Source of the DNA: a virus
Direction: 5' to 3' (one strand)
Length of the DNA stretch: 29,569 bases
Virus record (IMG/VR): IMGVR_UViG_3300009370_000127
Coordinates: 1-29,569 of that record
This document shows positions 4,838 to 16,599 of the stretch, one piece after another. Position 1 is the stretch's first letter, and each line of letters starts with the position of its first letter. The notes beneath the pieces were generated by a model. It worked only from the letters and a program-made list of their open reading frames with translations. It ran no database searches and had not been told where the DNA came from. The translations under genes were made by a program, and so were the position numbers.

Positions 4838-4882
4838 GGATAAGGCTTGCGAAAATCGCTGCGGCCTTCTCAACCCCTTTTT
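4838..4882. repeat. Cassette hairpin element R1
   Basis: Degenerate copy: AAGGC (4842-4846) pairs with GCCTT (4864-4868) around a CGCTGCGG core, then AACCCC. It lies 5 nt upstream of a -35 box. Confidence 0.65.
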
Positions 4883-4886
4883 GCTC

Positions 4887-4915
4887 TTGACACGTAGGTT
4901 ATATTAGTGTACCTT
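4887..4915 (+). promoter_or_regulatory. Near-leaderless promoter
   Basis: TTGACA (4887-4892), 17 bp, TACCTT (4910-4915), 8 nt, ATG at 4924. Confidence 0.85.
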
Positions 4916-4923
4916 AAGTCCCA

Positions 4924-5370
4924 ATGAAGCTATTCTATCAACCACTCGGAAACAGTTGGGCAGTTGGAGTTGAGTCTGACGACCCTCAAAAAATTACCTC
5001 ACAAGATTATAGTTGGTTCAATCATGGAGCCTATAACGGTGAGATGAATTATATGTCCAGTACGTTCGCTTACATATGGACGACAGAAAAAGACATAAAG
5101 AATTACTTCTATAACTCGTCCCTTGCGTATTTTTTGGGTAAGTATGAAAACACGCTAAAAGAAAAAGTTAGACGTTACGCACGTTTACTCGCAAGGCTTA
5201 GATTCAACAACATGATTCACGAAACGTTTATTTCCGTGCAACATGGGGGAGCTTATCGACTTTCTCTCAGTAGCGAAATGTGTGGACGTGGCACTATGAA
5301 AACTGGTGGCGTGTGGAACGATGAAGAAGAGTGGAAACAAACCAGCGAAAGATTCTACAACTTTCAGTAA
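4924..5370 (+). CDS. Hypothetical protein, 148 aa
   Basis: Unrecognised. The N-terminal half is rich in Trp, Tyr and Asn; the middle (residues 70-100) holds a basic helix (KEKVRRYARLLARLR); the end is polar. No signal peptide, membrane segment or catalytic motif is seen. It is a single-gene unit between element R1 with its promoter and the GP88 promoter, so it behaves like one of the phage's swappable cassettes. Confidence 0.65.
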   Translation: MKLFYQPLGNSWAVGVESDDPQKITSQDYSWFNHGAYNGEMNYMSSTFAYIWTTEKDIKNYFYNSSLAYFLGKYENTLKEKVRRYARLLARLRFNNMIHETFISVQHGGAYRLSLSSEMCGRGTMKTGGVWNDEEEWKQTSERFYNFQ

Positions 5371-5374
5371 AGAC

Positions 5375-5403
5375 TTGACAACCTAAGTAAAACCTACTAT
5401 ATT
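5375..5403 (+). promoter_or_regulatory. Leaderless-type promoter of the GP88-family gene
   Basis: TTGACA (5375-5380), 17 bp, TATATT (5398-5403), TACATC, ATG at 5410. Confidence 0.88.
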
Positions 5404-5409
5404 TACATC

Positions 5410-6201
5410 ATGAAACCTACACAACCCCAAGCTCTAACCTTTTCCCAAGCTAACGCAAAGTTAATTGCGATGGCGAAGCGGCTCGGTTTAACTATCAAAT
5501 CTTTCACCCTCCCTAGTGGGTGGACGTGTCCAGCAGCAAAAGACTGCTTGTCTAAAGCGGACAGGACAACGGGCAAGATCACAGACGGCCCACACACAGC
5601 ATTTCGTTGCTTTGCGGCGAGTAGCGAATCACAGTATAAAAACACACGCGCAATGGTGTGGCGTAATTTTGAGGCTATCAAAAACGTTCTCCACAACGCA
5701 TGGCGATACAAAAAGGATCAAGTAAAAGAGGTTGCCGATTTACTAGAGTCGATGCTTCCCAAAAAGTTTGACATCATGCGTGTCCATGTGGGTGGTGATT
5801 TCTTTTCACAGGTTTATTTTGATGCGTGGATGGAAGTTGCAAGGCGTAGACCCGAGCAGCATTTTTACGCATACACAAAGAGCTTAAACTTTTGGGTGGC
5901 GCGTATCGATTCAATCCCTTCAAACTTTTCCCTTACGGCCTCAGAGGGTGGCAAGCATGACGGATTGATTGTAGAGTACGGATTAAAAAACGCGGTTGTT
6001 GTTTACTCTGAAGAAGCAGCAGACGCAATGGGTTTAGAGATAGACCACGACGATTACCATGCGGCATTTGGAAAAGAAAACTTTGCCTTGCTCATTCATG
6101 GCACACAGCCAAAGGGCAGCGCAGCAAGCCAAGCAATTCAAGAACTAAAACGCAGAGGCTGGAACGGGTACAGCAAACGTAAAGAAACGGGGGTGGCTTA
6201 G
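5410..6201 (+). CDS. GP88-family phage protein, 263 aa
   Basis: It matches the phage Gene product 88 family, which is widespread in phages but has no established function. Recognisable parts are a Cys cluster (C40, C46, C67), the central RVHVGGDFFSQ segment with a following DAW (residues 124-140), and FYAYTKS (152-158). These read like a TIM-barrel-type domain with an N-terminal metal or Fe-S site, though that is inference. It starts with the shared ATGAAACCTAC and is leaderless. It heads an operon: its TAG stop overlaps a GTG-started membrane peptide, which in turn overlaps the SprT-like protease. Confidence 0.78.
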   Translation: MKPTQPQALTFSQANAKLIAMAKRLGLTIKSFTLPSGWTCPAAKDCLSKADRTTGKITDGPHTAFRCFAASSESQYKNTRAMVWRNFEAIKNVLHNAWRYKKDQVKEVADLLESMLPKKFDIMRVHVGGDFFSQVYFDAWMEVARRRPEQHFYAYTKSLNFWVARIDSIPSNFSLTASEGGKHDGLIVEYGLKNAVVVYSEEAADAMGLEIDHDDYHAAFGKENFALLIHGTQPKGSAASQAIQELKRRGWNGYSKRKETGVA

Positions 6202-6275
6202 TGTCTACGATAGTAACCTTTCTACTACTTTACATTCTCGTTGACGCCATAAGAAACCCCCAAAAAAGAAAATGA
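6201..6275 (+). CDS. Membrane micropeptide, 24 aa
   Basis: GTG start overlapping the GP88 stop (taGTG), with a GGGGGTGG sequence 6-7 nt upstream as a possible ribosome site. It ends in ATGA shared with the next gene. One hydrophobic helix (residues 4-16) is followed by a basic end (RNPQKRK). Its overlaps with both neighbours suggest that it is translated, if only to couple the two larger genes. Confidence 0.5.
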   Translation: MSTIVTFLLLYILVDAIRNPQKRK

Positions 6276-6835
6276 TAATAACAGAATCATTCGAAAAAAA
6301 AGAGTCGGGTTTACTTGTTCCCACCACCGCAGAATTGCAAGCGCGTTGCGAAGATAGAATTGGAGAACTACATGACTATGCCGAAAAGCATTGGGGGATA
6401 ACAATGGAACCGCCCGATCTACGTTATAGTCTAAAAGGAAATAGGGCAGGAACCGCGAACAGCTATAGAAATATCATTGAAATAAATTACGTTTTGCTAA
6501 AAGAAAACGTGGAGCATTTCATAAAGCAAACAGTCGGCCACGAGTTTGCACACATCTTGACGGACAAACTCTATAGTCTAAGAAGAATTGAAAAGCCTAC
6601 CGCCCACGGACGCGATTGGAAAAAAGTAATGCGTCATCTCGGTCTGAAACCAAATAGGTGTCACAATTATGATACGACGAATGCGGGAGGAAAGAAACAG
6701 AAACGATGGAAATATTACTGCGGGTGTCCGAATCCTTCTCATACTATATCCACGACAATTCATAACAGGATGAAGAAGGGGCGCACATACCGATGCAATA
6801 AGTGCAAAATAACTCTGACACGTAAACGCCCGTAG
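6272..6835 (+). CDS. SprT-like zinc metallopeptidase with C-terminal zinc ribbon
   Basis: A 187-aa protein with the SprT/Spartan layout. HEFAH (residues 90-94) is the catalytic zinc site, HGRDW at 112-116 supplies the third His as in SprT proteins, and a zinc-ribbon-like tail has C150, C152, C175 and C178. The family includes Spartan, which degrades DNA-protein crosslinks; the bacterial and phage members are poorly understood. It is coupled to the upstream membrane peptide by ATGA. It is the third HExxH protein in this window and the only one with the full SprT fold. A DNA-repair or protein-processing role is inference from the family. Confidence 0.88.
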   Translation: MIITESFEKKESGLLVPTTAELQARCEDRIGELHDYAEKHWGITMEPPDLRYSLKGNRAGTANSYRNIIEINYVLLKENVEHFIKQTVGHEFAHILTDKLYSLRRIEKPTAHGRDWKKVMRHLGLKPNRCHNYDTTNAGGKKQKRWKYYCGCPNPSHTISTTIHNRMKKGRTYRCNKCKITLTRKRP

Positions 6836-6839
6836 CAAT

Positions 6840-6878
6840 GGGGATGATGAGGCCGCTGCGTTTTCCTTAACCCCTTTT
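6840..6878. repeat. Cassette hairpin element R2
   Basis: GGGG (6840-6843), core GCCGCTGCG (6852-6860), AACCCC ending at 6874, then TTTT. It sits 4 nt upstream of the next -35 box. Confidence 0.75.
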
Positions 6879-6882
6879 GTCC

Positions 6883-6911
6883 TTGACACAAAGTCCAATG
6901 TGGGCTATAGT
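6883..6911 (+). promoter_or_regulatory. Leaderless-type promoter
   Basis: TTGACA (6883-6888), 17 bp, TATAGT (6906-6911), CCTTAC, ATG at 6918. An upstream in-frame ATG at 6900 lies inside the spacer, so it cannot be the start from this promoter. Confidence 0.88.
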
Positions 6912-6917
6912 CCTTAC

Positions 6918-7121
6918 ATGAAACCTACAAGAAAACCTCCAAGGCAATCTACCGATAAGTACGTTAGAATTCAATTCGAGGACATAGGCGAACTCACAAA
7001 CCATCTAAAAGAAATGGTGGTTGATACTCAATCTCGCAACTCAACCTATAACAGTATGGAGTGGGACGATTTATGCCAGAGGCATGGTATCAGCGGAGAC
7101 TCAAAGCAAGATTGGATTTAA
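6918..7121 (+). CDS. Hypothetical protein, 67 aa
   Basis: Start chosen at 6918 because the -10 box ends 6 nt upstream. Basic N-terminus (KPTRKPPRQ), then a mixed fold with acidic helices; no family is recognised. It begins with the shared ATGAAACCTACA. First of four genes in a tightly packed operon reaching 7708. Confidence 0.65.
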   Translation: MKPTRKPPRQSTDKYVRIQFEDIGELTNHLKEMVVDTQSRNSTYNSMEWDDLCQRHGISGDSKQDWI

Positions 7122-7123
7122 GT

Positions 7124-7297
7124 ATGAGACAATTAAGAAAACCATTTCAACATACGCAGACCCTCGTGATTAAAGAGGTGAGGGAACAAATACAAGAGGA
7201 CATCATCTGCTATGTAGAAGCTGTTGGAGGTGAGGAGGAAAACGCAGATGCCCTCTGCCAAATCGTAGTAGATAACTTTAAGAAGTTAGAGGACTAA
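7124..7297 (+). CDS. Hypothetical protein, 57 aa
   Basis: Start chosen at 7124, 2 nt after the previous stop; an upstream in-frame ATG at 7061 would overlap the previous gene by 61 nt. The protein is mostly helical, with a basic start and an acidic end, and no recognised motif. Second gene of the 6918-7708 operon. Confidence 0.6.
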   Translation: MRQLRKPFQHTQTLVIKEVREQIQEDIICYVEAVGGEEENADALCQIVVDNFKKLED

Positions 7298-7474
7298 ATG
7301 AAAACATTCACAGTTAGAATACCCGAAGTCCATTGGCAATACGTTGTGGTGGAAGCGGAGAATAAGAATGAAGCGATTGCTGCCGCTAAAAATGGTGAAG
7401 GCGATTACGGAAAAGATACAGAGTATGCTTATACTCTCGAAGATTACGAACACTATGACGTATTGGAGCATTAA
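7298..7474 (+). CDS. DpnD/PcfM-like small protein, copy 1 (58 aa)
   Basis: Starts directly after the previous stop, with GAGG 6 nt upstream. The layout (a beta strand, then Y-V-V-x-A-E-x-K-x-E-A-I-x-A-A-K, then strands) resembles the small DpnD/PcfM family, whose role is unknown. The next gene has the same layout, so the pair may be a diverged tandem duplication. No catalytic motif. Confidence 0.65.
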   Translation: MKTFTVRIPEVHWQYVVVEAENKNEAIAAAKNGEGDYGKDTEYAYTLEDYEHYDVLEH

Positions 7475-7708: not shown

Positions 7709-7726
7709 CGTTTCGTGTGTTAGGTT
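7698..7726 (+). promoter_or_regulatory. Leaderless-type promoter inside the previous gene's end
   Basis: TTGACA (7698-7703), 17 bp, TAGGTT (7721-7726), 7 nt, ATG at 7734. Confidence 0.82.
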
Positions 7727-7733
7727 ATACCCA

Positions 7734-7958: not shown

Positions 7959-7966
7959 AACGGTGA

Positions 7967-8087: not shown

Positions 8088-8098
8088 AATTTCTTAAA

Positions 8099-8241
8099 TA
8101 CCCCCATTTTCTCATCGGAGAAATCCCCCTTATATAAGAAACTCTGGGGTAGAATAACACTGAAATACAGCAATTTTTGGCAAATTAAATATACTTAAAT
8201 AACTCTAACAATTAAGGGCATTGGGTTAAGTCTCATTGTAT
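8099..8241 (+). other. Noncoding stretch with two further stems
   Basis: TACCCC (8099-8104) pairs with GGGGTA (8146-8151) and encloses a hairpin TTTCTC-ATCG-GAGAAA (8108-8123). This may be a second domain of the upstream RNA. The remainder to 8241 is AT-rich with no gene. Confidence 0.45.
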
Positions 8242-8294
8242 AGGGACTCGTGAGGCCGCAGCGGCCTACGCAACCCCTTGCTTCGCAAGGGGTT
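8242..8294. repeat. Cassette hairpin element R3
   Basis: GGCCGCAGCGGCC core (8254-8266, self-complementary around one A), followed by the hairpin at 8272-8294. Lies 39 nt upstream of the DUF932 promoter. Confidence 0.8.
8272..8294. terminator. Strong hairpin, possible terminator
   Basis: AACCCCTTG (8272-8280), CTTCG loop, CAAGGGGTT (8286-8294). There is no U-tract; a run of eight G follows instead. It may act as a terminator, an RNA end or a barrier. Confidence 0.55.
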
Positions 8295-8408: not shown

Positions 8409-9308
8409 ATGGCCAGAAACACTATTCAAACTTCCGACTTTGACTTCACCGTAGAGCGTGTTCCGCTCACCGTATCCACCACCAACAAAAAATCTCGCGT
8501 ATACGCGCACGTCCGCACCGATACGGGCGAGGAACTTGGCTGGGGTACAGAGCAGTATGGCTTTGTGCAAAACGGTGATTTGATTCACAACGCGGAATCG
8601 GCTTTCGAGTCTCGCGGTATGACTCCAACTAATCGTCAAGTTGTCGTGACGGGTCGCGGTGAGCGTATGTTCGCGCAGTACGACTTCGAGAATGAAACGG
8701 CCATTGCTACGAGGCGCGAGGATCGTGTCAAGGGCATGGAGTTGGGAATGCGTCTCACTCTGCAAAACTCTTTTGACCGTTCCCTGCGCGTATCCTTTGC
8801 GCTTGGCATGGTTCGGTTGGTTTGCCTTAACGGCATGACCACAATGGAAAAAGAATTCGGCATGACTCGCAAGCACTCCAGCAATGTGGAAATCGGATTC
8901 ATCGGGGATGCTCTCGACAAGGCAACGGGTAGCTTTCACAAAGCCGCGCAAGGCTTCAGTGTCTTGGGTGAGCGTGACATCACGCAAGACCAAGGTCGCA
9001 ACATCCTCAACCAGTTAGGTAAGTCCAAGGTGCTTTCCAACGTGGTGCGCGATGGCATCCTTAAAGTGTGGGAGAATCCTACTCACGAAGAGGATGAGGC
9101 TCGCAACCTGTGGACTCTCTACAATGCAGCAACTCAGCACCTCACCCATGAGGTTAGCCCTGACCGCTTCGAGTATGCAAACACTGTTAGCAGCAATGTC
9201 TTGCGGCGGTTACGCGGTGCTGCGGAAAACTCTGACAAGTTAAATAGGCTTGTCGTCGCGGTTCCAACTGATACGGTAGTGACCGAATCTGACGTGATCC
9301 TGAACTAA
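8409..9308 (+). CDS. DUF932 phage/plasmid-like protein, 299 aa
   Basis: It matches the DUF932 (phage/plasmid-like, TIGR03299-type) family in length and pattern: an N-terminal region ending in GWGTEQYGFVQN, a central strand-rich part (residues 60-120), VRLVCLNGM near 135-143 and a helical C-terminus. The family is common in phages and plasmids; its biochemical role is not established. No membrane segment. It has its own promoter with a ~40-nt leader, AAGAAAG before the ATG as a weak ribosome site, and a strong hairpin after it. It is more GC-rich than its neighbours, as expected for a highly expressed or recently acquired gene. Confidence 0.85.
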   Translation: MARNTIQTSDFDFTVERVPLTVSTTNKKSRVYAHVRTDTGEELGWGTEQYGFVQNGDLIHNAESAFESRGMTPTNRQVVVTGRGERMFAQYDFENETAIATRREDRVKGMELGMRLTLQNSFDRSLRVSFALGMVRLVCLNGMTTMEKEFGMTRKHSSNVEIGFIGDALDKATGSFHKAAQGFSVLGERDITQDQGRNILNQLGKSKVLSNVVRDGILKVWENPTHEEDEARNLWTLYNAATQHLTHEVSPDRFEYANTVSSNVLRRLRGAAENSDKLNRLVVAVPTDTVVTESDVILN

Positions 9309-9326
9309 ATAACCTCTCCCCCCCCA

Positions 9327-9351
9327 CCCGTAACCCCGAAGGGGTTACGGG
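9327..9351. terminator. Perfect 11-bp hairpin after the DUF932 gene
   Basis: CCCGTAACCCC (9327-9337), GAA loop, GGGGTTACGGG (9341-9351). Preceded by a C-run and without a U-tract. The sequence repeats the GGGGTTACG half of the cassette element. Confidence 0.65.
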
Positions 9352-9375
9352 AGCGGCTGCGGCTTACGAATTCCC
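9352..9375. repeat. Cassette element R4 core
   Basis: AGCGGCTGCGGCT core followed by TTACGAATTCCC and directly by the -35 box. With the hairpin at 9327 it forms a composite element. Confidence 0.75.
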
Positions 9376-9404
9376 TTGACAGTCAGACTTTTTTCGTGTA
9401 CTTT
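9376..9404 (+). promoter_or_regulatory. Leaderless-type promoter
   Basis: TTGACA (9376-9381), 17 bp, TACTTT (9399-9404), ATCCAC, ATG at 9411. Confidence 0.87.
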
Positions 9405-9971: not shown

Positions 9972-10415
9972 ATGAAAAGCAGAGTTGAAGTCTACAGAAA
10001 CCTACATCATGAAGGCATTGTTTACTCAGTGCGAACCACTCATGATAGACTCGTATGCAAACACGTTCACGGAATCATTATTCAAGAAGCTGAGTTTGCT
10101 GTTGGAGGAAAGGGCAATCAGCGTGTACGTGATGAGCAGCGTAAGAACGTCCACGCGGTAGTGCGTGGCAATTGGCTCACATGGACAAAGCAACCGCCCC
10201 TGTCTTTAACCCCAATGGTAAGCCCAAAGAAGATGCTAAAGGATATGCAGTCGATGGCTAACTTGCCCGAACACGCAGATTGGGTTTATGAGCGAATTAC
10301 ATACGACCCTTATAAATATAAGACGTTTGTTACGATGAAATACGAAGAACCAATTCTTAATTCACCTCGTTGCTTTGTTGGTCATGAGTGTTGGGCGTTG
10401 GTTCCCCCAAGGTAG
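9972..10415 (+). CDS. Hypothetical protein, 147 aa
   Basis: Start at 9972, 2 nt after the previous stop; no clear ribosome site, so coupled translation is likely. It begins with strands (VEVYRNLHHEGIVYSVR) and a His-rich segment and has a short Pro-rich stretch near residue 80 and a conserved-looking C-terminus. No family or catalytic motif is recognised. Last gene of its operon, followed directly by cassette element R5. Confidence 0.6.
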   Translation: MKSRVEVYRNLHHEGIVYSVRTTHDRLVCKHVHGIIIQEAEFAVGGKGNQRVRDEQRKNVHAVVRGNWLTWTKQPPLSLTPMVSPKKMLKDMQSMANLPEHADWVYERITYDPYKYKTFVTMKYEEPILNSPRCFVGHECWALVPPR

Positions 10416-10449
10416 GGGTGCGGGAAGCCGCAGCGGTTTACGAATTCCC
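10416..10449. repeat. Cassette hairpin element R5
   Basis: GGGG near 10416, AGCCGCAGCGGTT core, then TTACGAATTCCC directly next to the -35 box. The right half is nearly the same as R4. Confidence 0.75.
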
Positions 10450-10478
10450 TTGACAATCAGACTTAAAAATGCTTTAAT
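10450..10478 (+). promoter_or_regulatory. Promoter with leader
   Basis: TTGACA (10450-10455), 17 bp, TTTAAT (10473-10478). The leader of about 29 nt holds AAACCTACAAC from 10489, the same motif found just inside the coding start of leaderless genes, then CGGAG before the ATG at 10514. Confidence 0.85.
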
Positions 10479-10920: not shown

Positions 10921-10967
10921 GTAACCCGAAAGGGTTGCGGAAGCGGCAGCGGGGTTAGTAACCCCTT
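10921..10967. repeat. Convergent cassette element R6
   Basis: GTAACCC-GAAA-GGGTTGC hairpin (10921-10938), GCGGCAGCGG core, then GGGGTTAGTAACCCC (10951-10965). It lies between convergent genes and probably terminates both; no promoter is attached. Confidence 0.8.
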
Positions 10968-11189: not shown

Positions 11190-11243
11190 GTCAAAACTGC
11201 ATGGCCTATAACCCAGCACCACAGCAGTAAATTAAATTGTCTG

Positions 11244-11380
11244 CTGGTGCGAGGGGATCGAACCCTCATCCCTCCGGTATCGTGTCACCGTCTAGCTTCG
11301 TCGCGCTTCCACTAGGGGCTTTCCCGCGAGGGCACTCACAATCGCCTTAAACTCAAGTGAGGGCAACCATTGCCACCAAC
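11244..11380 (-). ncRNA. tRNA-like structured RNA 1 (~137 nt)
   Basis: On the minus strand the RNA should begin near 11380, 6-7 nt after a -10 box. It has a near-canonical T-arm, GAGGG-TTCGATC-CCCTC (loop at 11256-11262), directly followed by GCACCAG. The 5' end TTGGTG (11379-11374) can pair with CACCAG (11249-11244), closing the molecule as an acceptor-like stem. Other stems are GGCAA/TTGCC, CTCAC/GTGAG and CGGT/ACCG. It is too long and lacks a clear D-arm or anticodon arm for a normal tRNA. A second RNA of similar size and ends lies at 15727-15884. Confidence 0.6.
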
Positions 11381-11386
11381 AAGAAA

Positions 11387-11437: not shown

Positions 11438-11470
11438 AAGGGTATTAAAAAGCGCAGCGGGGTCATAAAC
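11438..11470. repeat. Cassette hairpin element R7
   Basis: Degenerate left half (GGGT), AGCGCAGCGGGG core, AACCCC at 11468-11473. Between the gene at 11474 and the RNA promoter at 11387-11415. Confidence 0.6.
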
Positions 11471-11473
11471 CCC

Positions 11474-11758
11474 TTACTCCTTCATCCACGGTGGTGGTTC
11501 GTCTTTGTCCCACATTTCATTAACTTTCATCCACGGGATGCGAAGTAGTTCATCCCATGATTCTTGATCTACAACATCATTGTGAGCAGCCCGAACAATA
11601 GCGTGATGACCCGAAAGCTTCCATTTCCAATCTTCACCATACGTTTCAGTCAGCACGTCAGAATCAATGGTATGTTCCTTGCCTTCAGGGTTAATGTAAG
11701 TGAAAACGTGCCTATTAGTTTTCCTGTTAGAGTAAAGTAAGAATTTCTCGCCTTCCAT
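11474..11758 (-). CDS. Hypothetical protein, 94 aa
   Basis: Leaderless start 6 nt after TACTAT. A soluble protein with strands at the N-terminus (EKFLLYSNRKTNRHVFTYINPEGKEH), a Trp-rich helical second half and an acidic Pro-rich end. No family is recognised. First protein gene of the minus-strand cassette block: one promoter, one gene, one hairpin element. Confidence 0.65.
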   Translation of the reverse strand: MEGEKFLLYSNRKTNRHVFTYINPEGKEHTIDSDVLTETYGEDWKWKLSGHHAIVRAAHNDVVDQESWDELLRIPWMKVNEMWDKDEPPPWMKE

Positions 11759-11803: not shown

Positions 11804-11866
11804 AGGGGTTAATGATACCGCAGCGGCCCCCGTAAGCCCTTGTGAGCTTACGAGGGTTGGGGGCTA
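11804..11866. repeat. Cassette hairpin element R8 (long)
   Basis: AGGGGTT with an ACCGCAGCGG core, followed by a nested hairpin CGTAAGC/GCTTACG (11831-11837/11846-11852) inside GGCCCCC/GGGGGC. A longer composite copy. Confidence 0.75.
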
Positions 11867-12169
11867 GGCCAAGCTTGGTTCAGTGCCAGCGTAGAGGCCA
11901 GCGGCTTCTTGTCGCTTTTCCTCAGTTAGGTCACGGAATTCCAACATATCCATTTCATCATCTCCAAGGAGACAATCCATATGGTCATTGTATTTGGGGA
12001 TACGACCCTCACGGAGAGAGGCGATATTCTTGAGATCAACTTCATCGAGTTGAGCATGGTGTGGGTTGCAGCGAGTCCCATCGCTGAAGGTGGTTTGGTC
12101 ACGTTCGAGGATGTCCTGTTGGATACGTTGGACGTGGTTCTTTATTAGATGCTCTATTCTGTTGTTCAT
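11864..12169 (-). CDS. Hypothetical protein, 101 aa
   Basis: Mainly helical and acidic, with a DGTRCNPHHAQLDEVDL segment in the middle and an LTEEKRQEAAGL end; the pattern looks like a conserved phage family but I cannot name one. The start lies 9 nt after TACATT, and the sequence before the ATG (ACCTCC) is the opposite of a Shine-Dalgarno site. Single-gene cassette. Confidence 0.6.
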   Translation of the reverse strand: MNNRIEHLIKNHVQRIQQDILERDQTTFSDGTRCNPHHAQLDEVDLKNIASLREGRIPKYNDHMDCLLGDDEMDMLEFRDLTEEKRQEAAGLYAGTEPSLA

Positions 12170-12178
12170 ATCGGAGGT

Positions 12179-12207
12179 AATGTAACACCAAATACGTTAC
12201 CTGTCAA
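12179..12207 (-). promoter_or_regulatory. Cassette promoter, near leaderless
   Basis: Minus strand: TTGACA (12207-12202), 17 bp, TACATT (12184-12179), 9 nt, ATG at 12169. The spacer holds GTAACGTATTTGGTGTTAC, an inverted GTAAC/GTTAC pair that may be an operator. Confidence 0.82.
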
Positions 12208-12216
12208 GCATTTATT

Positions 12217-12252
12217 TAGGGATCACGAAACCCGCAACGGGGTAGCGAACCC
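12217..12252. repeat. Cassette hairpin element R9
   Basis: Variant copy: AGGGATCACGAAACCC, a CGCAACGGGG core (AAC instead of AGC), GCGAACCCC. Confidence 0.7.
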
Positions 12253-12253
12253 C

Positions 12254-12532
12254 TTATTCATCTTCCCAACGATAGCCTTCAGGTGGCATGATGTGCCACA
12301 AGTCATTTTCCCTTGCTCTACCTATGACGTGAGGCTCAATCTCTTCCATGTCTACCATGCCCCACTCGTTTTCGTTGCCCATCACATAGCCAAAGGACAA
12401 GCCGCAACTGTCTGTCTCTTCTAGATAATACTCCCAAAGGTTTTTAGTGATGATATGTTGATGCACGGTGAAAGGCTCGCCTTCGGCGCATGGGCCTGTC
12501 CCATCGTTGCTGATTATGTTTCTAGGTTTCAT
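12254..12532 (-). CDS. Hypothetical protein, 92 aa
   Basis: Leaderless or with a 1-2 nt leader (8 nt from -10 to ATG); starts ATGAAACCTAG, close to the shared 5' motif. Acidic and Trp-rich, with GYVMGNENEWGMVDMEEIEPH in the centre and a PPEGYRWEDE end. No recognised family or membrane segment. Single-gene cassette. Confidence 0.65.
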   Translation of the reverse strand: MKPRNIISNDGTGPCAEGEPFTVHQHIITKNLWEYYLEETDSCGLSFGYVMGNENEWGMVDMEEIEPHVIGRARENDLWHIMPPEGYRWEDE

Positions 12533-12540
12533 GTAGGGAA

Positions 12541-12569
12541 ATAGTACGCTCTAAATATCGGTTTGTCAA
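12541..12569 (-). promoter_or_regulatory. Cassette promoter
   Basis: Minus strand: TTGACA (12569-12564), 17 bp, TACTAT (12546-12541), TTCCCTAC, ATG at 12532. Confidence 0.88.
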
Positions 12570-12578
12570 GCCCTACTT

Positions 12579-12618
12579 TAGGGACCACGAAACTCGCAGC
12601 GGGGTGGCGAACCCCTTT
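12579..12618. repeat. Cassette hairpin element R10
   Basis: AGGGACCACGAAACTCG, CAGCGGGG core, GGCGAACCCC. Confidence 0.75.
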
Positions 12619-12769
12619 AGTGACCACAGCACGGGTAGTCTTCGCAGTTGCAACGTGAGTAGTTATCTGGGCCACCATCATCCCAAAAAGCTTGCTCTCT
12701 TTCATCAAACCATTCGCTCATTTCGGCATGGTCTTGGTTGGTCATTTCACTATAAGGGTCTTTACTCAT
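12617..12769 (-). CDS. Small acidic protein with Cys-rich C-terminus, 50 aa
   Basis: Start chosen at 12769, 6 nt after TACTAT; the open frame extends upstream to 12856 through the promoter and hairpin, so that part is not coding. The protein is acidic and ends RCNCEDYPCCGH, where four Cys and a His could hold a metal ion. The rest is helical with DHAEMSEWFDEREQAFW. No named family. Single-gene cassette. Confidence 0.65.
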   Translation of the reverse strand: MSKDPYSEMTNQDHAEMSEWFDEREQAFWDDGGPDNYSRCNCEDYPCCGH

Positions 12770-12775
12770 GGGGAA

Positions 12776-12804
12776 ATAGTACGGCTGAAATATCGATTTG
12801 TCAA
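12776..12804 (-). promoter_or_regulatory. Cassette promoter, leaderless type
   Basis: Minus strand: TTGACA (12804-12799), 17 bp, TACTAT (12781-12776), TTCCCC, ATG at 12769. Confidence 0.9.
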
Positions 12805-12813
12805 GCATTACTT

Positions 12814-12852
12814 TAGGGGTTACGAAACGCGCAGCGGGGTGACGAACCCCTT
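12814..12852. repeat. Cassette hairpin element R11
   Basis: Consensus copy with AGGGGTTACGAAACGCGCAG and GGGGTGACGAACCCC; the same core sequence as R12 and R20. Confidence 0.85.
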
Positions 12853-12860
12853 TCACACTT

Positions 12861-13025
12861 TTACCAAGTCCATTCAGTGGTGAGCATACAGTGAGCTACT
12901 ACAAAGCTCAAAGCAAGGGCCGCACCCAAGCACGCCGCAATGGTTAATTCAAGATACCACTTAACTTTAGCATCTTGTTCGTTGAGTTGCTGGATTTCTT
13001 TACGTGTTAGGTTTTTATTTTTCAT
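12861..13025 (-). CDS. Small membrane protein, 54 aa
   Basis: Overlaps the preceding gene by ATGA and so is probably coupled to it. The first 23 residues are polar and charged (KNKNLTRKEIQQLNEQDAKVK), then one hydrophobic segment (residues 25-44) spans the membrane. No family recognised. With the 33-aa peptide at 13022 it makes a cassette of two small membrane proteins, which might form a pair. Confidence 0.6.
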   Translation of the reverse strand: MKNKNLTRKEIQQLNEQDAKVKWYLELTIAACLGAALALSFVVAHCMLTTEWTW

Positions 13026-13123
13026 GATATAGATTCAATGTAAATGCCCGTTGCTAGTATCACCACAAATGATACGATACCGACAATAAGAACAAAGTAA
13101 ATATCTCTGAAGTCGTCGTTCAT
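13022..13123 (-). CDS. Membrane micropeptide, 33 aa
   Basis: Start lies 7 nt after TACTAT, without a ribosome site. Acidic N-terminus (NDDFRD), then a hydrophobic helix (residues 8-26). Its stop overlaps the next start (ATGA). Unknown function. The promoter and the coupled second gene make it credible despite its size. Confidence 0.6.
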   Translation of the reverse strand: MNDDFRDIYFVLIVGIVSFVVILATGIYIESIS

Positions 13124-13130
13124 TGGGAGA

Positions 13131-13159
13131 ATAGTACGGCTTAAATATCGATTTGTCAA
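13131..13159 (-). promoter_or_regulatory. Cassette promoter
   Basis: Minus strand: TTGACA (13159-13154), 17 bp, TACTAT (13136-13131), 7 nt, ATG at 13123. Confidence 0.88.
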
Positions 13160-13169
13160 GCATTACTTT

Positions 13170-13207
13170 AGGGGTTACGAAACGCGCAGCGGGGTGACGA
13201 ACCCCTT
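13170..13207. repeat. Cassette hairpin element R12
   Basis: Same core sequence as R11. Confidence 0.85.
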
Positions 13208-13210
13208 ATG

Positions 13211-13426
13211 TTAATAGTCGTTACCTTCCATTTGATTAAAGTCTGCTAGGTCATCCATGCCAGACCCGTCACCAGGCCAGCAACCTTCAAAGCCATCATA
13301 GGCTATTGTAGATGAGGAGAAATTAGGCTTCTCATCATAATACTCCTCTGAGCCAATTTTGGCAAGGCGGTCATCAGGGCTTTGGGGGTCGAGGTTAGAA
13401 TTAGGGTTGTTGTAGGTTTCACTCAT
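13211..13426 (-). CDS. MSETY-type small acidic protein, 71 aa
   Basis: Start chosen at 13426 from the promoter (-10 ends 7 nt upstream); the open frame upstream to 13555 crosses a promoter and hairpin. It begins MSETYNN, sharing its opening codons with genes at 15280, 16186 and 3488. The rest is acidic and probably disordered (NPNSNLDPQSPDD, GDGSGMDD). Single-gene cassette; function unknown. Confidence 0.62.
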   Translation of the reverse strand: MSETYNNPNSNLDPQSPDDRLAKIGSEEYYDEKPNFSSSTIAYDGFEGCWPGDGSGMDDLADFNQMEGNDY

Positions 13427-13433
13427 GGAGAAA

Positions 13434-13462
13434 ATAATAATATCTAAATACTGATTCGTCAA
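13434..13462 (-). promoter_or_regulatory. Cassette promoter (divergent pair)
   Basis: Minus strand: TTGACG (13462-13457), 17 bp, TATTAT (13439-13434), 7 nt, ATG at 13426. Faces away from the plus promoter at 13510. Confidence 0.8.
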
Positions 13463-13474
13463 GAAGTTTTTTTT

Positions 13475-13510
13475 GGGGTTACGAAACGCGCAGCGGCCTA
13501 AGAAACCCCT
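13475..13510. repeat. Cassette hairpin element R13 (between divergent promoters)
   Basis: GGGGTT, GCGCAGCGG core, AAACCCC; the last base is the first of the plus -35 box. No gene end lies here, so it is not needed as a terminator. Confidence 0.8.
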
Positions 13511-13538
13511 TGACAACGTCACAGAGTTCGTGTACCTT
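13510..13538 (+). promoter_or_regulatory. Leaderless-type promoter
   Basis: TTGACA (13510-13515), 17 bp, TACCTT (13533-13538), ATTCCC, ATG at 13545. Confidence 0.87.
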
Positions 13539-13544
13539 ATTCCC

Positions 13545-13928
13545 ATGAGTGACACTTATCAATTCGAGGATGTAGAAATTAAGCTGAACGATTCAACCCT
13601 CCTGTATGTCTTTGGAGAGCTTGAGTACGACCCTTGCTGGGAAAATGGTGATTTCGATTACGAGGGGCCACAAGGGACGGCCACTCATCGGGTCGGCATG
13701 GAATTGACCGATATTGAAATTGAGGATATAAGCATTTTTCATTTTAACGTCTCTGCTAACATGGGTGGCAAGTGGGTAGATTTGGGGCAGATTGAATGGA
13801 GTTACTGCGATCAGGATAAGAGCTTTCGGGCGTTTGTGGAAAAGGAAATTCGCGAAATCGTAGGCAATGACCGTTCATTTACTGAAACGGTACAAGAGGC
13901 GGGCGTGCCAGAATATGACCCTTGTTGA
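13545..13928 (+). CDS. Hypothetical acidic protein, 127 aa
   Basis: Leaderless start 6 nt after the -10; the frame is open from 13473 but that part is promoter. It begins MSDTY, like the MSETY group. Strand-rich and acidic, with a repeated EYDPC (near residue 35 and at the C-terminus) and a WSYCDQDKSFRAFVEKEI helix. The family is unrecognised. Single plus-strand gene inserted among minus-strand cassettes. Confidence 0.62.
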   Translation: MSDTYQFEDVEIKLNDSTLLYVFGELEYDPCWENGDFDYEGPQGTATHRVGMELTDIEIEDISIFHFNVSANMGGKWVDLGQIEWSYCDQDKSFRAFVEKEIREIVGNDRSFTETVQEAGVPEYDPC

Positions 13929-13950
13929 GTGTAAATATCATCTCACCCTT

Positions 13951-13997
13951 GCAACCCGAAGGGGTTGCGGGGGCCGCTGCGGGGTTAGCGACCCCTA
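13951..13997. repeat. Convergent cassette element R14
   Basis: GCAACCC-GAAG-GGGTTGC hairpin, GGCCGCTGCGG core, GGGGTTAGCGACCCC. Between convergent genes, same layout as R6. Confidence 0.8.
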
Positions 13998-14050
13998 AAC
14001 ATCCTATAAGCTATATAAACTAAAAGGATAGTTACTATAGGCTCCATGCT

Positions 14051-14233
14051 CTATTCGCAGGGATTAGGCTGAGTCCACACGTAAGGCCAAACCCCAACAA
14101 TCTCGCTATTAGGGTTATCTGCCAAGGCGCAGCGTTTGGCTTCTTCCAGAGAGAAGTCGCTAAAGCTTTGTTGATGATAATGACCGCTAACGGTGTGGCG
14201 GGTTCGGATCGTGTAGTTTTTGGTGTCGTCCAT
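14051..14233 (-). CDS. Hypothetical protein, 60 aa
   Basis: Start 8 nt after TAGTAT. Its layout (strand-rich start, a His-rich HYHQQSFSDFSLEEAKRCA stretch, then strands) is faintly like the DpnD/PcfM-type proteins at 7298-7708, but too divergent to assign. Single-gene cassette. Confidence 0.6.
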   Translation of the reverse strand: MDDTKNYTIRTRHTVSGHYHQQSFSDFSLEEAKRCALADNPNSEIVGVWPYVWTQPNPCE

Positions 14234-14241
14234 TTAGGGAA

Positions 14242-14270
14242 ATACTACACCCTAAATATCGGTTCGTCAA
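14242..14270 (-). promoter_or_regulatory. Cassette promoter (divergent pair)
   Basis: Minus strand: TTGACG (14270-14265), 17 bp, TAGTAT (14247-14242), 8 nt, ATG at 14233. Confidence 0.85.
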
Positions 14271-14278
14271 GCATTATT

Positions 14279-14315
14279 TAGGGGTTACTAAACACGCTGC
14301 GGCTAAAGAATCCCC
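14279..14315. repeat. Cassette hairpin element R15 (between divergent promoters)
   Basis: AGGGGTTACTAAACACGCTG, GCGG, AATCCCC, directly followed by the plus -35 box. Second divergent example. Confidence 0.8.
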
Positions 14316-14344
14316 TTGACAGTTAACTCTTTTTCTTGTACATT
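14316..14344 (+). promoter_or_regulatory. Near-leaderless promoter
   Basis: TTGACA (14316-14321), 17 bp, TACATT (14339-14344), 10 nt, ATG at 14355. Confidence 0.83.
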
Positions 14345-14354
14345 CTTTCTCGTA

Positions 14355-14663
14355 ATGAAGACCTACAAAACTTATCAAGCTCGTAACGCGGTCAAGGCCG
14401 CAGAGGTAACCAACCACATCAAAGCTCAAAAAAAATTGGGCGTGACTCATGAGAAGGCGAAGGCTGAAGCTTATCGCCTTTATCAAATCAAGGCTGCGAT
14501 GCCTATCCTCCGGCTCTCTTTTGAAGAGGCTCGTGTGGTAGCTGCTCCCCCTATCCCTCAAATGGTAAAAGTGAGCCTTCCACCTCTGCCCCAATCTAGA
14601 GCCTTGCCACCGCTGCCAGTGGGATTAGCCACAAACCCGCCTTCTCAATTACAAATACAGTAG
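14355..14663 (+). CDS. Hypothetical protein with Pro-rich tail, 102 aa
   Basis: Start from the promoter; the upstream open frame to 14316 is promoter DNA. It starts MKTYKTY (ATGAAGACCTAC, close to the shared 5' motif). Residues 8-60 are Ala/Lys/Glu-rich helix, likely coiled coil; residues 72-102 are Pro-rich (PPLPQ, PPLPVG) and probably extended. It might be a scaffold or binding protein; family unknown. Confidence 0.62.
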   Translation: MKTYKTYQARNAVKAAEVTNHIKAQKKLGVTHEKAKAEAYRLYQIKAAMPILRLSFEEARVVAAPPIPQMVKVSLPPLPQSRALPPLPVGLATNPPSQLQIQ

Positions 14664-14675
14664 GCACAGCGTCCT

Positions 14676-14723
14676 CGTAACCTGAAGGGGTTACGGGGGC
14701 CGCTGCGGGGTGGCGAACCCCTT
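14676..14723. repeat. Convergent cassette element R16
   Basis: CGTAACC...GGTTACG hairpin (14676-14695), GGCCGCTGCGGGG core, GCGAACCCC. Between convergent genes. Confidence 0.8.
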
Positions 14724-14988
14724 AAAAACCTAATCGTCGTTTAGCTCGCCACCACCACCCATATGCGGGGTCTTCGCCCCTGAGATTGGTGAGCCAGTAA
14801 AGGCGGTGGCACACGAGGTTAACCCAACGAGAGTTGGGCCACCTGTGGGCAGGGCCATGAGAACGGCTAAAGACCCAGCTACTGAAAGACCACTGCCACT
14901 CATGCGGCATGACTGCACGCACCACAGGGCGCAGGACTTGAGAGCGGCGGACAAAGAAACGAACAAGGTTGAACAGTAGGTCATTCAT
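14722..14988 (-). CDS. Hypothetical basic Trp-rich protein, 88 aa
   Basis: Start chosen at 14988 (7 nt after TACTAT); the frame is open to 15024 through the promoter. Unusually rich in Arg and Trp (ten Trp), ending YGWWWRAKRRLGF; this could suit membrane-surface or nucleic-acid binding. An alternative in-frame start in another frame (14984, 84 aa) also exists, so the true frame is not certain. Single-gene cassette. Confidence 0.5.
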   Translation of the reverse strand: MNDLLFNLVRFFVRRSQVLRPVVRAVMPHEWQWSFSSWVFSRSHGPAHRWPNSRWVNLVCHRLYWLTNLRGEDPAYGWWWRAKRRLGF

Positions 14989-14995
14989 TGGGGAA

Positions 14996-15024
14996 ATAGT
15001 ACGGCTGAAATATCGATTCGTCAA
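14996..15024 (-). promoter_or_regulatory. Cassette promoter
   Basis: Minus strand: TTGACG (15024-15019), 17 bp, TACTAT (15001-14996), 7 nt, ATG at 14988. Confidence 0.87.
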
Positions 15025-15033
15025 GAATTATTT

Positions 15034-15072
15034 TAGGGGTTACGAAACGCGCAGCGGCTTCAGTGATCCCTT
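15034..15072. repeat. Cassette hairpin element R17
   Basis: Consensus left half (AGGGGTTACGAAACGCGCAG), right half degenerate (GATCCCTTCGGGTC). Confidence 0.75.
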
Positions 15073-15091
15073 CGGGTCTGGAGCGTGTTAG

Positions 15092-15280
15092 CTATTCATC
15101 AAAAAGCTCATCGTAGTAATTACGGAATGGCACTACTTCGAGTTCGTCGGGGGTTTCTTCCACACCTTCGAGAGTCATCACTTGGACGGTCTCTTCAAAC
15201 AGGTTGAGGGTGCTGGCGTCAAACTCCAAGTCACACTTGGCGTCCAGGTTAGGATTATGGTGGTCGTAGGTTTCACTCAT
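15092..15280 (-). CDS. MSETY-family small acidic protein, 62 aa
   Basis: Leaderless start 6 nt after TAAGTT. It shares MSETY, LDAK, EFDAST and NLFE with the protein at 15977-16186, so the two are paralogues about 0.9 kb apart. Acidic and helical, ending NYYDELFDE. Unknown function. The repeated family in the same kind of cassette suggests duplication of whole cassettes followed by divergence. Confidence 0.68.
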   Translation of the reverse strand: MSETYDHHNPNLDAKCDLEFDASTLNLFEETVQVMTLEGVEETPDELEVVPFRNYYDELFDE

Positions 15281-15286
15281 GGGAGA

Positions 15287-15315
15287 AACTTACGGCATAA
15301 ATACCCATTCGTCAA
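15287..15315 (-). promoter_or_regulatory. Cassette promoter, leaderless type
   Basis: Minus strand: TTGACG (15315-15310), 17 bp, TAAGTT (15292-15287), TCTCCC, ATG at 15280. Confidence 0.85.
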
Positions 15316-15325
15316 GAATTATTTT

Positions 15326-15363
15326 AGGGGTTACGAAACGCGCTGCGGCTTCAGTGACCCCTT
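15326..15363. repeat. Cassette hairpin element R18
   Basis: AGGGGTTACGAAACGCGCTG, GCGG, GTGACCCC. The core has T in the centre while R17 has A. Confidence 0.8.
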
Positions 15364-15367
15364 ATGC

Positions 15368-15417
15368 TACTCCCCCGTATCCCCCCCGTATTTATTCGAC
15401 AGGGGGGGAGGGGGGTA
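15368..15417 (-). terminator. C-tract/G-tract hairpin, possible terminator
   Basis: Two C runs (around 15370-15388) face two G runs (15402-15415) with a short A/T-rich loop, so very GC-rich pairing is possible and the G runs might also form a quadruplex. On the minus strand it follows the small membrane genes at 15455-15640. No clear U-tract. Confidence 0.45.
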
Positions 15418-15454
15418 ACTTTTTTTTCATTTCAAAAAAATTACGCAGTACGGA

Positions 15455-15553
15455 CTACGTTAATGCTAAGGCGATTAAGGCAAAGCCTAGTGCGGTAAGA
15501 ATAAAGCCAGTTTGAAAGGCTGCGAGAAACATATCCCAATTAATTTTTTTCAT
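15455..15553 (-). CDS. Small membrane protein, 32 aa
   Basis: Begins MKKINWD and continues as one hydrophobic helix (residues 8-31) rich in Ala and Leu. It follows a 23-aa peptide by 15 nt and is probably the second gene of that cassette; the spacer carries AAAAAACCTACTAAATATG, another copy of the AAACCTAC motif. No ribosome site is seen. Confidence 0.55.
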   Translation of the reverse strand: MKKINWDMFLAAFQTGFILTALGFALIALALT

Positions 15554-15568
15554 ATTTAGTAGGTTTTT

Positions 15569-15640
15569 TTAGTTGTTAAAAGACTCACACACGAGGCGAG
15601 TCATAACGTACGCGAATAGGATTCCTGCTATCGGTTCCAT
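15569..15640 (-). CDS. Micropeptide with a membrane segment, 23 aa
   Basis: Start 7 nt after TATTAT. MEPIAGILFAYVM forms a short hydrophobic helix, followed by a polar end. The cassette promoter and position support expression, but at 23 aa this remains tentative. Pairs with the 32-aa membrane protein downstream. Confidence 0.5.
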   Translation of the reverse strand: MEPIAGILFAYVMTRLVCESFNN

Positions 15641-15647
15641 GTAGAGA

Positions 15648-15676
15648 ATAATACTTGTCAAATACCAATTTGTCAA
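15648..15676 (-). promoter_or_regulatory. Cassette promoter
   Basis: Minus strand: TTGACA (15676-15671), 17 bp, TATTAT (15653-15648), 7 nt, ATG at 15640. Confidence 0.87.
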
Positions 15677-15686
15677 GCATCATTTT

Positions 15687-15724
15687 AGGGGTTCGAAAAG
15701 CCGCTGCGCTTCGCGCTACCCCTT
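15687..15724. repeat. Cassette hairpin element R19
   Basis: AGGGGTTCGAAAAGCCGCTG, then GCGCTTCGCGC and TACCCC; the inner part can form a GCGC-TTC-GCGC hairpin. On the minus strand it follows RNA 2. Confidence 0.75.
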
Positions 15725-15726
15725 AA

Positions 15727-15884
15727 TGGTTCTCACGGAGTCGAACCGCCACCATTAGGGAAGGCGAAGCCAAAGCGATGTTGGGCCGCGTTCTTAAGGC
15801 ACTTTTTCGCATCTACACCCGACGACATACGAGGGGCGGTGCCGCGATAATTCTAGGCGGGAACCAGTCAGCCATCGCTTAACT
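15727..15884 (-). ncRNA. tRNA-like structured RNA 2 (~158 nt)
   Basis: A complete cassette promoter (15892-15920) drives a stretch with no gene on the minus strand. Predicted RNA features are a helix AAGCGATG (15880-15873) with CATCGCTT (15780-15773), inner stems GGCAC/GTGCC and CCGC/GCGG, a T-arm-like GCGG-TTCGACT-CCGT (loop 15745-15739) and TGGTTC (15866-15861) able to pair with GAACCA (15732-15727) near the 3' end. Together these imply a pseudoknot and a tRNA-like closed end. It is followed by element R19 at the position where cassette genes end. It resembles RNA 1 at 11244-11380 in ends and size; family unknown. Confidence 0.65.
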
Positions 15885-15891
15885 GGGGAAA

Positions 15892-15920
15892 ATAGTAGCT
15901 TGGAAATATCGATTCGTCAA
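15892..15920 (-). promoter_or_regulatory. Cassette promoter of RNA 2
   Basis: Minus strand: TTGACG (15920-15915), 17 bp, TACTAT (15897-15892), then TTTCCC; predicted +1 near 15884. No start codon follows. Confidence 0.85.
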
Positions 15921-15930
15921 GCATTATTTT

Positions 15931-15968
15931 AGGGGTTACGAAACGCGCAGCGGGGTGACGAACCCCTT
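15931..15968. repeat. Cassette hairpin element R20
   Basis: Same core sequence as R11 and R12. Confidence 0.85.
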
Positions 15969-15976
15969 ATGTGTTA

Positions 15977-16186
15977 TTACTCTTCACGGAGCCCATCCAT
16001 GAAGCGGTCTTCGTTTTCGTTTTCCTCGTAACAGAGTTCATCGATGACGGTGAAATGTTCGTCAGCGAGCACATCCACTTGCGCTTCAAACAAGTTTATG
16101 GTGCTGGCGTCGAATTCGGCGTCAAGCTTCGCGTCAAGGCTCGCGCTAAGTGGGGTTTCTGAATTAGGTTCGTAGGTTTCACTCAT
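15977..16186 (-). CDS. MSETY-family small acidic protein, 69 aa
   Basis: Leaderless start 6 nt after TAGGAT. Shares MSETY, LDAK, EFDAST and NLFE with the protein at 15092-15280. The extra segment ASLDAKLDAEFDAS looks like an internal duplication. Ends ENEDRFMDGLREE. Acidic, soluble, unknown role. Confidence 0.68.
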   Translation of the reverse strand: MSETYEPNSETPLSASLDAKLDAEFDASTINLFEAQVDVLADEHFTVIDELCYEENENEDRFMDGLREE

Positions 16187-16192
16187 GGGAGA

Positions 16193-16221
16193 ATCCTAGA
16201 GCCAAAATATCAGTCTGTCAA
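16193..16221 (-). promoter_or_regulatory. Cassette promoter, leaderless type
   Basis: Minus strand: TTGACA (16221-16216), 17 bp, TAGGAT (16198-16193), TCTCCC, ATG at 16186. Confidence 0.87.
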
Positions 16222-16231
16222 CACTTTTTTT

Positions 16232-16270
16232 AGGGGTTTGGAAGACCGCAGCGGTTTCCGTAACCCCTTT
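16232..16270. repeat. Cassette hairpin element R21
   Basis: AGGGGTTTGGAAGACCGCAG, CGG, then GTAACCCC and TTTT. Confidence 0.78.
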
Positions 16271-16289
16271 TGGGTCGGAAGCGATGCTT

Positions 16290-16511
16290 TTAGGCGTACG
16301 CTGTGCGTACTATATTGAATTCCTTCATTTGCTTCTTCTTCGCCACGCGGAGTTTACTCGCGGGAACGGTAAAAGTCGAACCGTCGTAAGATTCGAGCGT
16401 CCACACATCATTTTCTACGCTTTTCGCACGTCCGATTTGATAACCGCAGAGCGAATCAGGGTCTTTGACCTTATACAGGCATCCGATTTGGTAACGAGTA
16501 GGTTTTTTCAT
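16290..16511 (-). CDS. Hypothetical protein, 73 aa
   Basis: Start chosen at 16511, downstream of the promoter; the frame is open to 16553. Begins ATGAAAAAACCTAC, the shared 5' motif. Strand-rich fold (YQIGCLYKVKD..., DVWTLESYDGSTFTVPASKLRV) that looks like a small beta-barrel or SH3-like domain, with a basic KKKQMK stretch. No family can be named. Confidence 0.6.
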   Translation of the reverse strand: MKKPTRYQIGCLYKVKDPDSLCGYQIGRAKSVENDVWTLESYDGSTFTVPASKLRVAKKKQMKEFNIVRTAYA

Positions 16512-16521
16512 CTCCCGAATA

Positions 16522-16550
16522 GGATAACCGACCAAATACCGACCTGTCAA
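16522..16550 (-). promoter_or_regulatory. Cassette promoter (weak -10)
   Basis: Minus strand: TTGACA (16550-16545), 17 bp, TTATCC (16527-16522), or TATCCT with 18 bp. The ATG at 16511 lies about 10 nt downstream. Confidence 0.65.
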
Positions 16551-16560
16551 CACTTTTTTT

Positions 16561-16599
16561 AGGGGTTAGGAACGCCGCTGCGGCTTTCAGAAGCCTTTT
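16561..16599. repeat. Cassette hairpin element R22 with GGCTT/AAGCC-TTTT
   Basis: AGGGGTTAGG, GCCGCTGCGG core, then GGCTT-TCAG-AAGCC-TTTT (16582-16599), a possible plus-strand terminator. It lies between divergent promoters. Confidence 0.78.

Follow-up and report, generated by a model that had tools for sequence, protein, structure and literature searches.

Repeated dyads at the gene boundaries of a phage small-gene array: candidate regulator binding sites

We describe a repeated dyad element in a virus record of 29,569 bases (IMG/VR IMGVR_UViG_3300009370_000127), which was analysed over its whole length and is referred to below as the window. The window encodes a T4-type terminase large subunit, PhoH, a clamp-loader-like AAA protein, a GP88 protein, a SprT-like protein and a DUF932 protein, and 22 copies of the dyad separate the genes of an array in which small genes abound. 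Homologues of the terminase occur in hundreds of IMG/VR contigs while the best matches among cultured phages are ~25% identical to it, which points to an uncultivated, probably marine, phage lineage. A possible link to T4-type phages is seen in the N-domain of the terminase, which is T4-type, and in a RIIB-like protein in one relative; a close cultured relative was not found.

The dyads, their place between genes and their distance to promoters

A weight matrix built from the copies recovers 22 sites and no others in the window, with scores of 35 to 59 bits compared with a maximum of 6.6 in shuffled sequence, which confirms the number given in the first-pass annotation. The copies align over 39 positions (-19 to +19 from the centre) without a single insertion or deletion. 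The element is an odd-length dyad, AGGGGTT-N9-GCWGC-N9-AACCCCT, with conserved blocks AGGGGTT at -18 to -12, GCWGC at -2 to +2 and AACCCCTT at +12 to +19. The core GCWGC is invariant save for one GCAAC, the central base is A in 13 copies and T in nine, and the variable part consists of the linkers that join the arms to the core. The element is near-symmetric, i.e., the matrix scores in both directions and two copies score slightly better on the opposite strand, and the dyads are listed below without strand. The annotation had described GGGGTT, a nine-base core CCGCWGCGG and AACCCC as common to all copies, with differences mainly outside the core and an alternating central base. The exact nine-base core occurs in only seven of the 22 copies and the two exact arms together in six (AGGGGT with ACCCCT in eight). 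The eighth exact CCGCWGCGG of the window falls within a terminator hairpin at 2118 that has nothing to do with the dyads. The three copies said to share the same core (dyads 11, 12 and 20) do so, and their identity extends over the whole element.

No copy lies within a gene, and some overlap a stop codon; 16 of the junctions are tandem, three convergent and three divergent. Dyad 1 (4842-4878, centre 4860) lies between tandem plus-strand genes and has its promoter on the right at +27. Dyad 2 (6839-6875, centre 6857) follows the SprT gene, with a promoter at +26, and its junction has orthologues in the relatives G001 and G002 described below. Dyads 3 (8242-8278, centre 8260) and 4 (9340-9376, centre 9358) flank the DUF932 gene (8409-9308, plus strand), a conserved anchor for comparison with other phages; the upstream copy has a promoter at +74, and the downstream copy is fused to a -35 box (+18) and holds a gene-end hairpin in its left half. 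Dyad 5 (10414-10450, centre 10432), after the L5-gp82-like gene, is also fused to a -35 box (+18). Convergent junctions contain dyads 6 (10930-10966, centre 10948), 14 (13960-13996, centre 13978) and 16 (14686-14722, centre 14704). Three dyads lie between divergent promoters, namely 13 (13474-13510, centre 13492; minus-strand promoter at 30, plus-strand at 18), 15 (14280-14316, centre 14298; 28 and 18) and 22 (16561-16597, centre 16579; 29 and 47). Dyad 7 (11438-11474, centre 11456) has a minus-strand promoter 41 bp to its left, in a region with a tRNA-like RNA. A minus-strand promoter at 29 accompanies dyads 8 (11804-11840, centre 11822), 9 (12218-12254, centre 12236), 10 (12580-12616, centre 12598), 11 (12815-12851, centre 12833), 12 (13170-13206, centre 13188), 17 (15035-15071, centre 15053), 18 (15326-15362, centre 15344), 19 (15687-15723, centre 15705, with tRNA-like sequence adjoining on the right), 20 (15931-15967, centre 15949) and 21 (16232-16268, centre 16250). 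A TTGAC-type promoter directed away from the dyad is thus present on at least one side of 19 of the 22 copies, the three exceptions being convergent. Minus-strand -35 boxes start 28 to 30 bp from the dyad centre, with the single exception of dyad 7, and plus-strand -35 boxes are often fused to the dyad arm, 18 bp from the centre.

The distances between dyads and promoters are not arbitrary. We collected 97 dyads in 11 genomes and searched for promoters directed away within 15 to 120 bp. Such a promoter was found for 66 of the 97 dyads, compared with 15 expected from random positions. Once similar spacers had been removed, the distances from the centre to the -35 box fall at 18, 26-29, 37-41, 44-52, 55-60, 64-68, 76-79, 86-88 and 106-108 bp, i.e., on a ladder with steps at 18, 28, 37, 47, 57, 67, 77 and 87, spaced 9.8 to 10 bp apart. 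Among periods of 4 to 25 bp, the non-redundant distances gave a best value of 9.8 (n=51, R=0.61, P=5e-4). The period is 10.0 bp in dyads with TTGGCA arms alone (n=34, R=0.64; see below), and the periodicity is retained when any TTGAC is accepted as a -35 box (n=73, R=0.53) or when de-duplication is harsher (n=24, P=0.008). As a control, the distance to the first ATG showed no period and no significant concentration (R=0.12). With the start site taken ~36 bp past the first base of the -35 box, the dyad centres come to lie near -54, -64, -73, -83, -93 and -103. These positions resemble those of class-I activator sites such as CRP's, which likewise lie upstream of the -35 box at helically phased distances. 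The phasing is the strongest functional clue that we have. It is not required for the working of an RNA element or of a recombination site, and a ladder of 9.8 to 10 bp points to a DNA-bound regulator obliged to face RNA polymerase.

Several other features of these promoters and their surroundings were observed. Nearly every minus-strand gene of the array is preceded, a few bases ahead of its start codon, by a promoter of one family, for example TTGAC(A/G)AAYCGATATTT-N-TACTAT at 12776-12804 (minus strand). In the region 12000-16700 (minus strand) these promoters have in common the unusual spacer word GATATTT, with the ATG ~7-10 nt further on, which suggests that the minus-strand transcripts may have very short leaders; several open reading frames there have only 20 to 40 codons and some are paralogous (MEPI... 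at about 14045 and 15640). Two tRNA-like RNAs of ~140 nt, at 11238-11382 and 15729-15868 (both minus strand), contain the T-arm sequences GGTTCGATCC and GGTTCGACTCC; they were missed by ARAGORN and by an Rfam search, which yielded no matches in the window. The first of them is conserved in G002, the dyads of one array immediately adjoin tRNA genes, and contig L194 has an Rfam tRNA match of 124 nt at 8164-8287; the dyad-adjoining RNAs may be tRNAs with inserts. In relatives, TGTG(A/G)ATAACTT, the reverse complement of the DnaA box TTATNCACA, occurs shortly upstream of the -35 box of array promoters (L084 at 12138, 13375 and 13726; also in G004, G006, G009, G012 and G013). It was not seen at the dyad promoters of the window, save for one TTATCCACA at 9403.

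Equivalent junctions in related phages

The nearest relatives are the contigs G001 (26 kb) and G002 (158 kb), whose genes in common with the window are 65-90% identical at the nucleotide level. Neither contains a copy of the window form of the dyad. They carry instead a TGAGTT...AACTCA dyad with identical geometry (seven copies in G001 and eight in G002), which measures exactly 35 bp across the outer arm ends without an indel in the 15 copies and which in G002 is confined to the region that matches the window. The orthologous junctions at which each phage has its own version lie upstream of the 4924 gene, behind the SprT gene, on either side of the DUF932 gene, behind the L5-gp82-like gene, ahead of the 11474 gene and on either side of the 14051 gene. 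The order of the array genes is scrambled and in part inverted relative to G001 and G002, and the 11474 gene is inverted together with its dyad relative to G001. Absence of the copies from equivalent junctions of relatives had been named in advance as evidence that would refute the first-pass interpretation; the window sequence is indeed absent there, yet its place is taken by a dyad that has other arms but an unchanged geometry.

Other members of the terminase clade carry a third version, TTGGCA-N8-GCWGC-N8-TGCCAA (33 bp). When IMG/VR was scanned for this form, 59 stretches were returned on ~38 contigs, including several arrays of 7 to 15 copies, and 110 distinct copies yield the consensus TTGGCACGGGNCGNGCWGCNCGCCCCGTGCCAA. 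Scans of IMG/VR with strict patterns for the window and TGAGTT forms returned no matches, though G001 and G002 carry the latter, and a generic pattern for the three families (GNNACG-N6-GCWGC-N6-CGTNNC) matched the TTGGCA family only. All three arm families are found 3' of the DUF932 gene, in different phages, and the TTGGCA dyads take this same place behind DUF932 proteins that are only 37-44% identical to that of the window. These comparisons indicate that the position of the dyad is old and that its arms have changed in concert between related phages. A mobile insertion or miniature inverted-repeat transposable element was rejected because the dyads stand at orthologous junctions of lineages with different arms.

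The TTGGCA form reads TTGGCACG, in which the spacing GG-N10-GC recalls a pair of back-to-back sigma54-type -24/-12 promoters. This spacing is restricted to the TTGGCA family, being absent from the window and TGAGTT forms, and the T at -13 is not conserved; we rejected this explanation, which is very improbable. Another explanation is a roadblock or stoperator-like boundary site: a protein bound to the dyad could halt polymerase entering from either side and so insulate transcription units from one another. The motif turns over between relatives at syntenic positions, as is also known from stoperators (PMC6550527). The dyads are palindromic, hence usable from both sides, and they occupy tandem, divergent and also convergent junctions. 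However, a roadblock does not need phasing to the -35 box and known stoperators are asymmetric and oriented (PMC9283540), so that we regard this role as rather unlikely.

Other repeated sequences were noticed in these genomes. A second palindrome, TTGAGAC-N3-GTCTCATT, lies near the same promoters in G004, G006 and G009, and G009 also has GCGGGACCGGTCCCGC hairpins. Further repeated dyads in relatives are CGTACTATCGSCGAGGG (40 bp) and a 54-bp CTCGGCG repeat (G010 3037-5830; L056 2-1140). The word AGAGGATTA(C/A)AACA has many non-coding copies at window positions 1-240 and 1767-1882, in L084 and L085, and also in both relatives.

Terminator hairpins and half-sites

The stem-loop interpretation offered by the first-pass annotation is not supported. 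Within window copies the two halves are complementary at 9.82 of 17 positions, compared with 10.29 when halves are permuted across copies (P=0.98). The dyads of G001 and G002 likewise have no excess complementarity between halves of one copy, and in the TTGGCA set there is only a weak excess in the inner linkers (z 2.3). The elements have no folding advantage over chimeras with swapped halves (-14.1 vs -14.6 kcal/mol) and most minus-strand exits hold 1 to 3 T in 8 nt, i.e., no U-tract. The DUF932 gene of G001, G002, G005, G015, G017 and G018 is directly followed by a hairpin of GC pairs or a GC-rich stretch, mostly with a run of 4 to 8 T behind it, and the dyad stands further on, ahead of the next promoter. 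The absence of arm covariation, the equal folding of chimeras and the general lack of U-tracts therefore argue that the dyad is not a terminator hairpin, and, with the separate terminators of relatives also taken into account, an intrinsic terminator was rejected as the identity of the dyad itself. The same annotation had remarked that the core is more conserved than a terminator requires and had named a protein site as one of the possible reasons; this part of its argument is supported.

A related possibility is a cassette of the kind known as promoter/stem-loop cassettes (PeSLs), in which the stem-loop that terminates the upstream gene, here the dyad, would be coupled to the promoter of the gene that follows. 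The PeSLs of T4-type phages were reportedly described by Arbiol in 2010 and Comeau in 2014. The location between gene end and promoter, the shuffling of the array genes among relatives and the local hairpins, which are stronger on gene-end than on promoter sides (mean -10.9 vs -4.5 kcal/mol, P=2e-4), are in its favour. It conflicts with the results on covariation, chimeras, U-tracts and separate terminators given above, and with the occurrence of dyads between divergent promoters, and we consider it unlikely.

The halves of the dyad differ according to what they face. Gene-end-facing and promoter-facing halves have different linkers (left halves P 0.0004-0.002, right halves P 0.0008-0.015), while the type of neighbour on the opposite side is without influence (P 0.43-0.95). 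Halves track their own neighbour, so a convergent junction is end/end, a divergent one promoter/promoter and a tandem one mixed; as halves resemble others with a like neighbour, the modules meet at the dyad centre, which fits the PeSL analogy. The pattern would arise either if modules recombine at the centre or if each half has adapted to its neighbour. The first alternative makes the dyad a seam where gene cassettes are put together, either through a site-specific recombinase or through homologous exchange in the core that the copies have in common. It is consistent with the independence of the halves, with the inversion of the 11474 gene together with its dyad and with a match at 16 of 17 positions between the right half at 11822 and the inverted left half at 14704. 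On the other hand, adaptation of the halves accounts for the same pattern, some synteny breaks are free of dyads, and helical phasing would be left unexplained. Tyrosine and serine recombinases (PF00589, PF00239) are absent from the large relatives searched and Y1 transposase (PF01797) from the genomes searched; a target of any of these enzymes was rejected, and the dedicated recombination point proposed at first finds no support. A recombination seam is in our judgement quite unlikely. As a separate observation, the region at about 70-92 kb of G002 encodes a protein that is TnpB-like (OrfB_IS605/Cas12f1-like), whereas no Y1 transposase was detected.

A putative regulator and known systems

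The reading that we favour, and hold to be fairly probable, is that the dyads are dispersed, lineage-specific binding sites of a regulator on DNA. Each element would be a two-fold-symmetric site in duplex DNA, with the central GCWGC and two arms of 6 to 7 bp at a fixed distance. We infer that a sequence-specific protein, probably encoded by the phage and co-evolving with the arms, recognises the dyad and acts on the adjoining sigma70-type promoters of the small-gene array. The location of the sites, upstream of the -35 box at many helical steps, makes an activator more likely than a repressor; the protein would have to sit on a fixed helix face with respect to RNA polymerase, and in the simplest case it would be a class-I-type activator. 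On this reading each half is inherited or selected with its flank, such that junctions are assembled as half plus neighbour, and a transcript that arrives from the gene-end side may be ended or protected by the local hairpins there.

A number of observations weigh against this reading. The three copies at 10948, 13978 and 14704, all between convergent genes, have no promoter. The -35 boxes of dyad-adjoining promoters are good, and these promoters might do without an activator. When a promoter with a strict 17-bp spacer was required, no significant phasing was seen in the TTGGCA subset alone, a set that is too small (n=11); the control word GTCAA reached P=0.009, with a best period of 14.8; and de-duplication removes shared junction ancestry only partly. 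Pfam and PHROG scans of G002 detected sigma factors, but no evident cognate protein among the matches listed. Small conserved proteins that accompany the dyads (e.g., homologues of the 14355-14663 product) were considered as the binder on grounds of co-occurrence and rejected, having no recognisable DNA-binding domain.

We tentatively suggest, as a possibility that is less probable than not, that a large lineage of marine phages has a regulon of a kind not described before, in which one regulator of co-evolving specificity would act through gap-free tripartite dyads, each a whole number of helical turns ahead of one of dozens of small-gene promoters, and in which half-sites would be interchangeable, such that any two modules joined at GCWGC re-create a functional site. 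The dyads provide a rule, open to testing, by which large uncultivated marine phages may control their arrays of small takeover genes while these continue to be shuffled. More generally, intergenic palindromes that are commonly filed as terminators can be protein sites, with missing covariation and helical phasing as the telltales, and concerted arm change at fixed positions offers a natural series for the study of regulator/operator co-evolution.

Among known systems, phi29 p4 and P2 Ogr/P4 Delta are activators with few sites in each genome, which lie at a single fixed distance, about -55 or -82. Their sites too are phage dyads upstream of the -35 box, from which RNA polymerase is contacted; the present array differs in having up to 22 sites on a helical-turn ladder. 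Integron attC, lox and dif sites are also dyads of conserved geometry, and like the present ones separate small gene cassettes, but here no integrase or recombinase was found, the cassettes have their own promoters and lie in both orientations, and the GTT/AAC order of attC is reversed. A repetitive extragenic palindromic (REP) element with its RAYT would require a Y1 transposase, the family missing from the genomes searched. PeSLs of T4-type phages combine a stem-loop terminator with an early host-type promoter in a region of shuffled small genes (PMC4503421). The likeness drawn by the first-pass annotation holds for the composite junction element, the coupled early host-type promoters (19 of 22 copies) and the region of shuffled small genes; it fails for the stem-loop terminator, as the window dyad is gap-free, without covariation or (mostly) a U-tract, and phased to the -35 box, while the terminators of relatives are separate and hairpins are local to gene ends. 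Cluster A mycobacteriophages have 20 to 30 intergenic stoperators per genome, asymmetric and oriented sites of 13 bp that are bound by the repressor in lysogeny and that have different motifs at syntenic positions of related phages (PMC9283540, PMC6550527). No immunity repressor was recognised among the matches listed for the ~130 G002 proteins, and an integrase was likewise not found. The many intergenic sites and the lineage-specific motif are features in common with stoperators, whereas the present sites are dyads of 33 to 37 bp, in one region, that score both ways. The arrangement resembles PeSLs in place and context and stoperators in dispersal and motif turnover, while it is unlike stoperators in form.

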